Below, in pieces: positions 59,356-64,000 of a DNA stretch of 64,000 nt. A model generated the notes under the pieces. It had not been told where the DNA came from. It worked only from the letters and a program-made list of their open reading frames with translations, and did not search any database. Within the stretch, counting starts at the first letter, position 1; every line of letters starts with the position of its first letter. The stretch comes from Hydrogenophaga sp. IBVHS1 (GTDB taxonomy: Bacteria; Pseudomonadota; Gammaproteobacteria; Burkholderiales; Burkholderiaceae_C): the NCBI RefSeq assembly GCF_002127265.1, contig NZ_NFUU01000003.1, forward strand, positions 124,001 to 188,000, read 5' to 3'. The position numbers and the translations under genes are program-made.

Positions 59356-59435
59356 GATGCCTCCCGCAGAGCCGCCTCAAGGGAGGCATGTACCCCCTTG
59401 GGGGGCAGCGAACGAACGTGAGCGTGGGGGATCAT
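59352..59435 (-). other. 27-codon mini-ORF bridging narG and narH through a repeat
   Basis: The start ATG overlaps the narG stop as ATGA (59435-59432) and has AAGGAG about 10 bases upstream. The stop TGA overlaps the narH start as ATGA (59355-59352). The frame runs through the repeat and reads MIPHAHVRSLPPKGVHASLE onward. The Shine-Dalgarno site suggests real translation. Confidence 0.4.
59371..59431 (+). repeat. Palindromic intergenic repeat (copy 4)
   Basis: It reads GAGCCGCCTCAAGGGAGGC at the start, has the core ACCCCCTTGGGGGGC and ends ACGTGAGCGTGGGGGA at the narG stop. It is a diverged copy of the 18903 and 22606 repeats and lies inside the nar operon between narG and narH. Confidence 0.75.
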
Positions 59436-62400
59436 GGGTTCTCTCCTTGGGATTGGTAGGCACGGATCAGGTGGTCGTCGGCCGGTGTGTCGAGCCAGTC
59501 CACCTTGTCCATCTTGCGCACCACAACGAATTCGTCGCGGTTGGTGCCGATCGTTCCGTAGTAGTTGAAGCCGTAGCTGAGCTGCGCGTAGCCGCCGATC
59601 ATGTGGGTCGGCTTGAGCACGATGCGCGTGACCGAGTTGTGGATGCCGCCGCGCACGCCGGTGATCTCCGAGCCCGGGGTGTTGATGATCTTTTCCTGCG
59701 AGTGGTACATCATCACCATGCCCGGGTTCACACGCTGGCTGACCACCGCGCGCGCAGCCACCGCGCCATTGATGTTGAACAGCTCAACCCAGTCGTTGTC
59801 CTCGATGCCGGCGCTCTTCGCGTCGTCTTCGCTCAACCAGACCACGGTGCCGCCCCGGTTGAGGGTGAGCATCATCAGGTTGTCGCTGTAGGTCGAGTGG
59901 ATGCCCCACTTCTGGTGCGGCGTGATGAAGTTCAGCAGGATCTCGGGGTTGCCGTTGGACTTGATGTTGTGGATGCCTGAGGTCGCCTTCAGGTCCACCG
60001 GTGGGCGGTAGCTGCCCAGGCCTTCGCCGAAGGCAATCATCCAGGGGTGATCCTGGTAGAACTGCTGGCGGCCCGTGAGGGTGCGCCATGGGATGAGTTC
60101 GTGCACGTTGGTGTAGCCGGCGTTGTAGCTCACCGTCTCGCTCTCGATGCCACTCCAGGTCGGGCTGCTGATGATCTTGCGCGGCTGCGCCTGGATGTCG
60201 CGGAAGCGGATCTTCTCGTCCTCGCGGTGAATCGCGAGGTGCGTGTGATCGATGCCGGTCTGTTTGCCGAGCGCGGCCCAGGCTTTCACCGCCACGTGGC
60301 CGTTGGTCTCGGGCGCGAGCTGCAGGATCACCTCGCAGGCGTCGATGTCGGTCACGATCTTCGGCATGCCTTTGGTCACGCCCTCGTCCAGCGTGGTGCC
60401 ATTGAGCTGGCCCAGCTGCTCCACCTCGGTGCCGGTTTTCCAGCCGATGCCCTTGCCGCCGTTGCCCAGCTTGTCGAGCAAGGGGCCCAGCGCGGTAAAG
60501 CGCTTGAAGGTGTTGGGATAGTCGCGCTCCACCACGGTGATCTGCGGCGCGGTCTTGCCGGGGATGAGTTCGCAGTGGCCCTTGCGCCATTCCTTCACGT
60601 CGAACGGCTGCGCGAGTTCGCCGGGGGTGTCGTGCATGATGGGCGTGAGCACCACCTCTTGCTCCACCCCCAGGTGGCCCACGCAGACCTCGCTGAAGGC
60701 CTGCGCAAAACCCTTGTAGATCTCCCAGTCGCTTCGGCTCTGCCACACCGGGTCCACCGCCGCCGAGAGCGGGTGGATGAAGGGGTGCATGTCGCTGGTG
60801 TTGAGGTCGTTCTTCTCGTACCAGCTCGCGGTGGGCAGCACCACGTCGGAGTACAGGCAGGTGGTGCTCATGCGGAAGTCGAGCGTGACCAGCAGGTCGA
60901 GCTTGCCTTGGGGCGCGTGCTCGTGCCACACCACCTCTTCGGGTTTGGCTTCGTCCTTGCCCAGATCCTTGCCCTGCACGCCGTTCTCGGTGCCCAGCAG
61001 GTGCTTGCAGAAGTACTCGTGGCCCTTGCCGCTGGAGCCCAACAAGTTGCTGCGCCACACGAACATGTTGCGCGGCCAGTTCTGCGGCGCGTCCGGGTCT
61101 TCGCAGCTCATGGCCAGCGTGCCATCTTTCAGCGCGCGCACCACGTAGTCCTTGGCGTCGAGCCCGGCGGCGGTGGCGTCTTTCACCACCTGCAGCGGGT
61201 TGGTCTTGAGCTGCGGTGCGCTGGGCAGCCAGCCCATGCGCTCGGCGCGCACGTTGAAGTCGATCATGCTGCCACCGAACGCGGTCTTGTCGGCCAGCGG
61301 GCTCACGATCTCTTCCATGCCAAGCTTCTCGTAGCGCCACTGGTCGGTGTGCGCGTAGAAGAAGCTGGTGCTGTTCATCTGGCGTGGCGGGCGTGACCAG
61401 TCGGTGGCAAACGCCAGCGGCACCCAGCCGGTTTGCGGTCGAAGCTTTTCCTGGCCCACGTAGTGCGCCCAGCCACCACCGCTCTGGCCGATGCAGCCGC
61501 ACATCATCAAGAGGTTGATGACGCCGCGGTAGTTCATGTCCGCGTGGTACCAGTGGTTCATGGCCGCGCCGATGATCACCATGGACTTGCCGTGTGTCTT
61601 GTCGGCGTTGTCGGCGAACTGCTGCGCCACGGTGATGACCTGGTCGCGCGGCACGCCGGTGATGCTCTCCTGCCAGGCGGGCGTGTAGGCGGCGTTGTCG
61701 TCGAAGTTCTTCGCGCCACTGCCCAGACCCCGGTCAATGCCGTACTGCGCGACCTGCAGGTCGAACACGGTGGCCACCATCGCATGGCGCTCTTCGCCGG
61801 CCTTGCCCAGGCGCAGGCGCACGGCCGGCACGCGGGCGTGGTTGATGGCGCCGCTCTGCGCGTTGGCGGTGAAGTGCGGCGCGGCGTTCCCACCGAAGTA
61901 GGGGAAAGCCACGTCCACCACCTGGGTGTCCTGCACGCCGTCCTCGATCACCGAGAGCTTGAGCTTCACGTCGGTGTCGCTGCGCGCTTCTTTCGCCTGC
62001 AGATTCCACTTGCCTTCATCGGCGCGGCCGGCCTCGCCCCAGCGGAAGCCGATCGAGCCGTTGGGCAGCACGGCCTTGCCACCGGTGTCGAAGGCCACCG
62101 TCTTCCACTCGGGGTTGTTCTTCTGGCCGAGCTGGCCGTTGAAGTCGCTGGCGCGCAAATAGCGGTCGGGCACCAGGGTCTTGCTGCCGTCGGCCAGCGT
62201 GTGTTCCTTCAGCATCACCAGCAGCGGCAGATCGGTGTAGCGGCGCGCGTAGTCGTCGAAGTAACTGCTGCGCGGCTTGCCGCCGTCGGGGAAATAGAAG
62301 TTCTTCAGCACCACATGGCCCATGGCCATGGCGAGTGCGGCATCCGTCCCTTGCTTGGGGTGCAGCCAGAGGTCGGAGAGCTTGGCGACCTCGGAGTAGT

Positions 62401-63250
62401 CGGGCGTCACGGCCACCGTCTTGGCGCCCTTGTAGCGCACCTCGGTGAAGAAGTGGGCGTCGGGGGTGCGCGTCTGTGGCACGTTGGAGCCCCAGGCGAT
62501 GATGAACGAGCTGTTGTACCAGTCGGCCGATTCGGGCACGTCGGTCTGCTCACCCCACACCTGCGGGCTGGCCGGCGGCAAGTCGCAGTACCAGTCGTAA
62601 AAGCTCATGCACACGCCGCCGATGAGCGAGAGGTAACGCGAGCCAGCGGCGTAGCTCACCATGCTCATGGCGGGGATGGGGCTGAAGCCGATGATGCGGT
62701 CGGGCCCGTGCTGCTTGATGGTATAGACGTTGGCGGCGGCGATCAGCTGGTTGACCTCGTCCCAGGTGCTGCGAACGAAGCCGCCCATGCCGCGCACCTG
62801 CTGGTAGTCGCGCCGGGCCTCGGGGTTCTCGACGATGCTGGCCCAGGCGTCCACCGGTGTCTTGGCCACATTCAATGCAGCGCGCCAGCGCTCCAGCAGA
62901 CGCCCGCGCACCATGGGGTACTTCACGCGGTTGGCGCTGTAGAGGTACCAGCTGTACGAAGCCCCACGCGCGCAGCCGCGCGGTTCGTGGTTGGGCATGT
63001 CCCAGCGCGTGCGCGGGTAGTCGGTCTGCTGGGTTTCCCAGGTGACGATGCCGCCCTTGACGTAAATTTTCCAGGAGCAGGAACCCGTGCAGTTCACGCC
63101 GTGGGTGCTGCGCACGATCTTGTCGTGCGCCCAGCGGTTGCGGTAGGCGTCTTCCCAGGTGCGGTCTTCGCCGGTGGTCTGGCCGTGGTTACCTGAGAAG
63201 GTTTCCCTGGGCAGAGAGAAGTGGCTCAATCGGTCCAGAAAATGGCTCAT
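59432..63250 (-). CDS. narG: Respiratory nitrate reductase alpha subunit
   Basis: 1272 residues, full length. It reduces nitrate to nitrite at a Mo-bis-MGD site on the cytoplasmic face. The FS0 ligands are His and Cys in HGVNCTGSC and the distal Cys in PRGCARGASYSWYLYSANRV. The molybdenum ligand Asp region is VCMSFYDWYCDLPPASPQ. The start has GGAG upstream. It is preceded by narK and a 364-bp region with two long hairpins. Confidence 0.97.
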   Translation of the reverse strand: MSHFLDRLSHFSLPRETFSGNHGQTTGEDRTWEDAYRNRWAHDKIVRSTHGVNCTGSCSWKIYVKGGIVTWETQQTDYPRTRWDMPNHEPRGCARGASYSWYLYSANRVKYPMVRGRLLERWRAALNVAKTPVDAWASIVENPEARRDYQQVRGMGGFVRSTWDEVNQLIAAANVYTIKQHGPDRIIGFSPIPAMSMVSYAAGSRYLSLIGGVCMSFYDWYCDLPPASPQVWGEQTDVPESADWYNSSFIIAWGSNVPQTRTPDAHFFTEVRYKGAKTVAVTPDYSEVAKLSDLWLHPKQGTDAALAMAMGHVVLKNFYFPDGGKPRSSYFDDYARRYTDLPLLVMLKEHTLADGSKTLVPDRYLRASDFNGQLGQKNNPEWKTVAFDTGGKAVLPNGSIGFRWGEAGRADEGKWNLQAKEARSDTDVKLKLSVIEDGVQDTQVVDVAFPYFGGNAAPHFTANAQSGAINHARVPAVRLRLGKAGEERHAMVATVFDLQVAQYGIDRGLGSGAKNFDDNAAYTPAWQESITGVPRDQVITVAQQFADNADKTHGKSMVIIGAAMNHWYHADMNYRGVINLLMMCGCIGQSGGGWAHYVGQEKLRPQTGWVPLAFATDWSRPPRQMNSTSFFYAHTDQWRYEKLGMEEIVSPLADKTAFGGSMIDFNVRAERMGWLPSAPQLKTNPLQVVKDATAAGLDAKDYVVRALKDGTLAMSCEDPDAPQNWPRNMFVWRSNLLGSSGKGHEYFCKHLLGTENGVQGKDLGKDEAKPEEVVWHEHAPQGKLDLLVTLDFRMSTTCLYSDVVLPTASWYEKNDLNTSDMHPFIHPLSAAVDPVWQSRSDWEIYKGFAQAFSEVCVGHLGVEQEVVLTPIMHDTPGELAQPFDVKEWRKGHCELIPGKTAPQITVVERDYPNTFKRFTALGPLLDKLGNGGKGIGWKTGTEVEQLGQLNGTTLDEGVTKGMPKIVTDIDACEVILQLAPETNGHVAVKAWAALGKQTGIDHTHLAIHREDEKIRFRDIQAQPRKIISSPTWSGIESETVSYNAGYTNVHELIPWRTLTGRQQFYQDHPWMIAFGEGLGSYRPPVDLKATSGIHNIKSNGNPEILLNFITPHQKWGIHSTYSDNLMMLTLNRGGTVVWLSEDDAKSAGIEDNDWVELFNINGAVAARAVVSQRVNPGMVMMYHSQEKIINTPGSEITGVRGGIHNSVTRIVLKPTHMIGGYAQLSYGFNYYGTIGTNRDEFVVVRKMDKVDWLDTPADDHLIRAYQSQGENP

Positions 63251-63344
63251 GGGATGCTCCGGTTGGGGTGTGTTGTTGGGGTCATCTGCCGTCGATTCGG
63301 TTGTTGGTTCGGCTCGGATTGCAGGCCTGCTTTTGTGGGGGCCA

Positions 63345-63430
63345 ATGGCAGTGGGGTGGATGCTTCCGTTCGTGTCCCCCGGCCTGCGGCCTCCTCCTTT
63401 ACCTCACTGCAGCATCCACCCCACTGCCAT
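63345..63430 (+). repeat. Hairpin element A
   Basis: Perfect 20-bp inverted arms (63345-63364 and 63411-63430; left arm ATGGCAGTGGGGTGGATGCT) around a 46-nt loop. The loop contains CGTGTCCCCC, the mini-stem GGCC-TGC-GGCC and TCCTCCTTTACCT. The same loop core, in reverse orientation, is in element B. Confidence 0.9.
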
Positions 63431-63490
63431 CGGCTGGCTGCACGGCTGGGCGCAATGACTGAAGGCTTTTGCGCGCCGACATCGTCTCCA

Positions 63491-63587
63491 GACTCAGGCC
63501 GGCGTGGCGCGCCGCTTCGGTAGGTAAAAGGAGGAGCCCGAAGGGCGGGGGACACGGACGAAGCGGCGCGCCACGCCGGCCTGAGTC
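63491..63587 (-). repeat. Hairpin element B
   Basis: Perfect 29-bp inverted arms (63491-63519 and 63559-63587; left arm begins GACTCAGGCCGGCGTGGCGC) around a 39-nt loop. On the minus strand the loop reads TCCGTGTCCCCC, mini-stem GCCC-TTC-GGGC, TCCTCCTTTTACCT. The arm sequence is unrelated to that of element A. It begins 28 bp after the narK stop. Confidence 0.92.
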
Positions 63588-63614
63588 CTGAAGCAACCGT
63601 GGAGCGAAGTGACT

Positions 63615-64000
63615 TCATGGGTTCTTGATCTCAGCGCCGGCACGCAGGTAGAACCACCAGTTCAAGACCAGGCAGACGGCGTAGAAGATGGCGAAGCCGT
63701 ACATGGCGTATTGCGGGGTGCCGGCCTTGATCTGCGCGCCGATCACCACCGGCGCGATGAAGGCACCGTAGGCGGCCACGGCCGAAGTCCAGCCCAGCAC
63801 GGGGCCGGCCTGCTGGCGGTCGAAGATGACGCCGATGGTGCGGAAGGTCGAGCCGTTGCCGATGCCGCTGGCAAAGAACAGCACGATGAACAGGCCGATG
63901 AAGGCGGGGAAGTACTGCTCGGGTGTGGCCGAGCCGTAGGCCTGCATCATCACGTAGCCCACTGCGGCGGAGGCCAGCACCATCACCGCCGAGATGACCT
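63615..64000 (-). CDS. narK: Nitrate/nitrite transporter NarK, C-terminal part
   Basis: The 3' 128 codons of a gene that continues beyond the window. The last membrane helices are visible (IGLFIVLFFASGIGNGSTFR, AVAAYGAFIAPVVIGAQIKA, FAIFYAVCLVLNWWFYLRAG). GNGSTFRTIGVIF is typical of NarK-type nitrate/nitrite porters. It is upstream of narG on the same strand and probably transcribed with it. Window truncation, not a broken gene. Confidence 0.9.
   Translation of the reverse strand, partial: VISAVMVLASAAVGYVMMQAYGSATPEQYFPAFIGLFIVLFFASGIGNGSTFRTIGVIFDRQQAGPVLGWTSAVAAYGAFIAPVVIGAQIKAGTPQYAMYGFAIFYAVCLVLNWWFYLRAGAEIKNP

Follow-up and report, generated by a model that had tools for sequence, protein, structure and literature searches.

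REPINs and BIMEs are inverted doublets of palindromes in which the doublet with its linker is the repeat unit; singles occur as well, the repeats lie near gene ends and their hairpins are strand-specific. REPs carry a GTAG or CGTC tag, and the bacterial MITE families ERIC, Correia/NEMIS, the Yersinia repeats and CIR are recognised by their whole sequence. The palindromic elements of Rickettsia and Wolbachia (RPE/WPE) are described, in sections of PMC10969869, PMC2229807 and PMC3767692, as repeats of ~100-150 bp with many copies, found in intergenic DNA as well as in frame within conserved genes, where they map to solvent-exposed regions of the proteins. A section of PMC3733652 gives the REP as a palindrome of 20-40 bp. 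In-frame fusions are reported in parts of PMC2229807 and PMC10969869 for ERIC, the 107-bp Correia form and the Yersinia repeats, CIR is described there as two independent stem-loops, and for MITEs in a related genus the same part of PMC10969869 cites the genome paper of Polaromonas JS666.

The locus described here lies between narK and narG in a 64,000-nt stretch of Hydrogenophaga DNA (the window). Its features are given below in window positions; R1 is a covariance model built from 84 copies.

59432..63250, minus strand: narG, downstream of the hairpin pair (TIGR01580)
63341..63434, hairpin element A, core on the plus strand, folded wobble-tolerant strand minus (R1 95.7 bits, A itself being in the R1 training set)
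63371..63404, plus strand: core of A, CGTGTCCCCC-GGCC-TGC-GGCC-TCCTCCTTTACCT
63435..63490, no strand: linker of the head-to-head pair A-B
63491..63587, hairpin element B, core on the minus strand, folded strand plus (R1 90.8 bits, B itself being in the R1 training set)
63527..63556, minus strand: core of B, mini-stem GCCC/GGGC
63615..63998, minus strand: 3' part of narK, upstream of the pair and cut at the window end (TIGR00886, 42.1 bits, below the family cut-off, the gene being partial)

A and B form a single head-to-head pair, and both are copies of a repeat family. The stem of A comprises 24 bp with one mismatch and a longest perfect run of 20 bp, that of B 29 bp, all perfect, and both elements have a mini-hairpin between GTGTCCCCC and TCCTCCTTTACCT within the long stem. 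The perfect arms of 20 and 29 bp given in the earlier note are confirmed, and a search of the window for perfect inverted repeats (arms of at least 16 nt, loop of at most 60) returned A and B only. The further description in that note, namely different arm sequences in A and B, loop cores in opposite orientation (A on plus, pattern match at 63371-63400; B on minus, 63527-63556) and mini-stems GGCC/GGCC in A and GCCC/GGGC in B, also proved correct. RNA folds of the AGGAGGA strands had energies of -60.0 (A) and -75.9 kcal/mol (B), with z values against shuffles of -8.5 and -10.7. None of the seven Rfam matches in 62401-64000 (E up to 1), six of them to microRNA models and one to an antisense RNA, reached the gathering score. 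The same pair is present at narK-narG in the genomes G258, G299, G296 and G273. Relative to the window's genome (G000), these orthologues show one-sided changes (1-5 per hairpin) beside compensated pairs, of which there are 1-4 in A and 2 in B. In G305 a deletion scar fuses the left arm of A with the right arm of B.

Of 250 genomes in the window's family R1 matched 117 (76 of 141 genera, up to 16 candidates scored per genome); the covariance-model search of relatives proposed in the earlier note did find a family of the core. The source copies of R1 had been found through the exact core, so the conservation of those letters is partly imposed. Among 300 genomes drawn from the order, matches occurred in 13 (up to 13 candidates scored per genome) and were confined to three families. 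When up to 150 candidates per genome were scored, 21 copies were counted in the window's genome, 110 in G489, 32 each in G217 and G223, 25 in G174, 22 in G227, 19 in G020, 18 in G172, 15 in G133, 12 in G318 and one in G062. The exact core pattern is found in just two places of the window's genome, A and B, and a looser pattern adds one; most of the 21 copies carry a sister core, ..GAATGTCCYCC..TCCYCCTTTATTTC.. The pattern GTGTCCCCC-N4-34-CCTCCTTT was present in 43 of the 250 family genomes and its reversed control in 3. An exact scan of named genomes gave at least 119 stretches, mostly from Rhodoferax, Hydrogenophaga and other betaproteobacteria; the matches listed also include single MAGs under the labels Pseudoxanthomonas and Gammaproteobacteria. 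The core also occurs in one viral contig (IMG/VR, L407), and two Variovorax plasmid records contain partial matches. Among all fetched loci 287 distinct copies had sufficient flank, and in 280 of them a stem surrounded the core (the seven without a stem were dropped before pairs were counted). The median stem length was 28 bp, and the unit measures ~100 bp. Across the family, one core is set in stems of unrelated sequence, as had been suggested from A and B.

Copies occur singly or as head-to-head pairs: 60 of the 61 neighbours less than 260 bp apart stood head to head, with a median core-to-core distance of 149 bp. The family shares with REPINs and BIMEs the inverted doublets, the singles, the sites at gene ends and the strand-specific hairpins, but differs from them in its longer unit, its constant part at the apex and the lack of a RAYT link. 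Doublets and strand-specific hairpins would follow by the logic of REPINs if the family were REPs or REPINs mobilised by a RAYT (Y1) transposase, and Y1_Tnp genes are common in the window's family (187 of 250 genomes). A unit of ~100 bp with a median stem of 28 bp is not of REP size, however, and neither GTAG nor CGTC is among the conserved columns, GTAG arising in copies with ..ACCTAC. Linkage was rejected, as 31 loci around Y1_Tnp genes gave one weak match (16.7 bits, E 0.12), and so was co-occurrence (90 genomes with both, 27 with the element only, 97 with the gene only and 36 with neither, from lists compiled by hand; Fisher p 0.56). Movement by RAYT is largely refuted and must be regarded as very improbable, in agreement with the earlier note, which had held the hairpins to be unlike a REP.

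In G174 nine X-linker-Y composites were found at nine loci, and in G227 eight near-identical composites. The repetition of composites at different loci indicates that arms were carried along on recent moves. Within one genome the arms form sub-families; at orthologous sites they diverge with partial compensation. The family is similar to ERIC, Correia/NEMIS, the Yersinia repeats and CIR in being short, non-autonomous and present in many copies with long stem-loops, but its stems are rewritten while fold and core stay. Conventional MITEs, moved by DDE transposases through terminal inverted repeats and carrying the hairpins as passengers, would account for the TIR-like ends on copies in G174 and G223 and on the G227 composites, whose outer ends are common to an unrelated ~760-bp repeat. 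The G227 ends are other than those of G174 and G223, and such differences of outer ends between lineages argue against passengers on a MITE. In a test for outer inverted repeats 4 of 44 pairs beat 20 shuffles, the test being ungapped and weak since it missed the G174 ends too. Moreover, one would hardly expect passengers to maintain a core that stays constant and a stem that stays paired, and the single copies in mpl leave little room for ends past the stem. At some G174 ends there are A/T tracts, which are suggestive at most of a target-site duplication. No parent IS of the hairpin family was found, and no autonomous element with G174 or G227 ends was recognised in a search by end patterns, in which the G174 pattern at 3 mismatches matched in all nine genomes (many matches being probably coding) and the G227 pattern was no more frequent than its control. 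We consider the passenger explanation quite unlikely.

Some further repeats were seen at these loci. L393 and L394 (G227) contain the ~760-bp repeat with ends CGGCCCGTTGCGGTCGTT, the same as those of the G227 hairpin composites, and L397 (G143:C43) contains another MITE-like repeat of ~370 bp with inverted ends TTTTCGGCCCTGAGCGGCCGTT. In L167 and L168 (G223) hairpin pairs stand 470-580 bp apart around a longer insert with inverted repeats of its own; the long-spaced pairs of G223, and those of G020, were read by eye. The left hairpin of the composite in L224 (G174) has a 68-column insertion in the alignment.

At 12 of the 15 sites of the window's genome, at least one genome of the same genus has no element and its flank anchors are no more than 25 nt apart, which supports the mobility supposed in the earlier note. 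R1 found no match in the element-free stretches, and 22 of 23 had no inverted repeat with arms of at least 10 nt and a loop of at most 80; in the remaining one, L306, there is an operator palindrome of the GGTACCGGTACC type, which is present also in the left flank of the corresponding site in the window's genome. No clean target-site duplication was established at the compared sites, where the exact junctions are unclear because the flanks of the relatives are just 67-97% alike. Core and stem come and go together. The earlier note had envisaged a mobile core landing in palindromes that were already there. One core in many unrelated stems would fit this idea, as would the copies of the window's genome, most of which share core and inner stem and differ in their outer stems. 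The element-free stretches at the 12 sites, however, lack a comparable palindrome, and recent copies bring their arms along, which makes a landing core hardly credible. According to the same note the idea would fail if other copies had the same arms: recent copies do share arms, as such a failure predicts, whereas old copies do not. It is possible that the palindromes are generated or corrected by template switching.

The core consensus of the folded strand is ..TAAAGGRGGAG-[mini-hairpin]-CGGRGGACA.. In A1 86.3% of the cells were paired, compared with 55.4% after shuffling and 37-44% after sliding, 825 cells were changed on both sides (262 in shuffles) and the covariation score was 0.686 (0.164 in shuffles); none of 500 shuffles reached any of these three values. 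Two other A1 measures were at shuffle level, with two-sided change in 29 of 32 pairs against 27.5, which is no real excess, and 100 further pair types against 100.1. Every one of the 26 outer pairs has a two-sided change somewhere, which is near shuffle level and says little. The mpl hairpin of the congeners G070 and G176 shows change in both arms, and one inner pair is G-C in the window's core type and A-T in the sister core. These results and the compensated pairs at narK-narG support the covariation that the earlier note had read from two mini-stems: the core is constant, and the stem changes its sequence yet stays paired. The middle bases of the two CCYCC runs (GGRGG on the folded strand) covary, the combinations being A-G, G-A or C-G; counted in core-strand letters, there were 56 C/T, 6 T/C, 3 C/G, 1 T/T and 0 C/C (n=78, 12 unparsed; Fisher p 1e-7, kinship ignored). 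Such covariation is compatible with a non-canonical or quadruplex-duplex fold.

Mismatches in the stems are strongly asymmetric. In core-strand letters A-C outnumbered G-T by 522 to 64 over 280 copies, by 166:50 in A1 and by 16:3 and 125:26 in two whole-genome sets. Core-strand A-C mismatches are G-U wobbles on the opposite (AGGAGGA) strand. The ratio was 55:8 in single copies where the mRNA is the core strand and 97:16 where it is the folded strand, and 26:3 and 31:9 in genes of either sense. The copies of one genome are not independent, so that sign-test p values are too small; with one copy per named locus (91 loci) the count was still 181 to 24. On the folded strand purine-purine mismatches exceeded pyrimidine-pyrimidine mismatches by 127 to 43 in the outer A1 pairs (the overall G-A count is inflated by fixed loop bases), an excess that cytosine deamination alone should not give. 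Statistically, the stem mismatches fit folding of a single, fixed strand, irrespective of host-gene orientation. As the wobble bias is independent of that orientation, selection seems to have seen one folded single strand, and this points to a mobility intermediate or a transcript of the element's own, whether RNA or ssDNA. By replication strand the singles of G217 were divided 14 to 8 (hand count, origin position assumed), and no bias is claimed.

By gene calls from a crude codon model, the 141 sites divide into 45 in convergent, 10 in divergent and 67 in tandem gaps and 19 inside ORFs. The folded strand is sense in 21 and antisense in 19 of the single tandem copies; this balance, with the tandem, convergent and in-gene sites, agrees with the view of the earlier note that the hairpins are unlike a simple terminator. 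All 15 sites of the window's genome were intergenic by the gene caller, one with a 15-nt overlap. At the in-gene sites ORFs run through the hairpin, the folded strand being sense in 20 copies and antisense in 11; a tally of frameshifts and stops was confounded by adjacent genes and is disregarded here. Nine of ten hairpin ORFs matched a named NCBIfam family, in one stretch across the hairpin for mpl (five loci), cobB (two) and mutL and in pieces for hrpA; the tenth had no NCBIfam match at 1e-20. In a second set of ten ORFs (one in common with the first) all matched Pfam. The matches flanked the hairpin in seven of them (AraC-type, DNA polymerase III alpha type, PutA/aldehyde dehydrogenase, DEAH helicase, cobB, FtsX and radical SAM), while in the other three they were confined to one side (two GNAT, one histidine kinase). 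These family tests covered the in-ORF sites other than L027, one of the 19. In G217, a single contig, matches flanked the hairpin at 7 of 27 sites (mutL, AraC-type, polymerase, PutA, helicase, cobB, mpl) and were one-sided at a further two.

In mpl, 27 loops were readable in 30 loci and 11 had the hairpin or a remnant, a share that is biased because the loci were the best matches to a hairpin-bearing query. The folded strand was sense in seven (among them a copy with an altered core and another that is half deleted), and the core strand in four. In G117 and G210, which belong to one genus, the mpl hairpin is present in opposite orientations with arms 18 and 19 of 26 alike, so that either the interior was flipped or the site was hit twice. 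Sequence alignment puts an unrelated stretch at the hairpin position in Mpl 3hn7, a solved structure. Like RPE/WPE, the hairpin family comprises many palindromes on the ~100-bp scale, in frame within protein genes as well as intergenic. It differs from them, to which it is likened by description and not by sequence, in occurring in other bacteria, in its free stem and constant core, in its head-to-head pairs and fixed folded strand, and in having both orientations at one gene site.

A structured RNA or DNA element useful to the host (mRNA end protection, regulator, nucleoid or CsrA-type site), kept at each site by selection, would be in keeping with the core conserved across genera, the stem upkeep at orthologous sites, the GGA-rich loop, the preference for convergent over divergent gaps (45 versus 10) and the sense folded strand in 20 of 31 in-gene copies. 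It is, however, difficult to reconcile with the absence of a transcribed-strand bias in single tandem copies (21 versus 19), with a wobble asymmetry that is independent of the mRNA strand, with both orientations at one mpl site and with the absence of the element from many orthologous sites of congeners; nor was there an Rfam family at the gathering score. A host function is in our opinion unlikely to be the explanation.

The elements are probably non-autonomous mobile palindromes of ~100 bp on which selection acts in the form of a folded single strand, always of the same polarity. This reading is favoured by the copy numbers, the covariation, the composites, the element-free sites, the deletion scar, the polarity of 60 of 61 neighbours, the in-gene copies and the strand bias. 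The folded strand would be the substrate of spread, present either as ssDNA during replication or as the element's own RNA. An enzyme acting in trans would recognise the purine-rich internal loop in the folded single strand and copy or paste the element elsewhere, and badly folding copies would leave no offspring. Arm-templated repair may help to keep the arms matched, and within genes an element would survive only in frame and in a tolerant stretch. Several observations count against mobile palindromes of this kind. No mobilising enzyme was found when RAYT association and an autonomous element with G174 or G227 ends were sought, and the compared sites yielded no clean target-site duplication. 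In some lineages the outer ends are TIR-like, differing from one lineage to another, as DDE-type MITEs would show, and the stem upkeep at old orthologous sites (mpl, narK-narG) exceeds that of a purely selfish, decaying element. Two A1 measures are at shuffle level (29 vs 27.5; 100 vs 100.1), and an mRNA role would give the same sense lean (20:11) of the folded strand in genes.

More tentatively, the family could represent a new class of mobile palindrome, which would spread via a folded single strand, either ssDNA or RNA of its own, with a constant polarity and with the purine-rich internal loop read by an enzyme. Only fold and core would be inherited in the long term, leaving the stem sequence free. 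With a habit like that of RPEs and REPINs and no RAYT link, it is called here a new family of mobile palindromes, and its own traits are stem freedom, paired polarity, a fixed folded strand and a partly protein-coding location. There was no earlier description in the literature searched; relevant work may lie outside it, so an earlier description is possible. The core strings retrieved no bacterial repeat, by title, among the literature matches listed, and the available parts of PMC3733652 and PMC12306157 name none of the genera looked for. Protein-coding palindromes, best known from Rickettsia and Wolbachia, would extend to a large free-living group. The system offers hundreds of natural compensated variants together with element-free sites in congeners, and the strand-intrinsic wobble asymmetry makes the molecule through which a palindrome spreads directly testable. 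The insertions in mpl, mutL, cobB and others represent repeated in-frame growth of proteins by a repeat.

Several repeats may land in the mpl loop. Other repeat-like stretches, of the CCCCC(T/G)(C/A)GGGGG type, were seen in it at L417, L420-L422, L424-L426 and L436, with peptides such as APSGGSEPRAAGSVGAP or LPPEGAVPPWGGPA; in L421 and L426 the stretches are duplicated.
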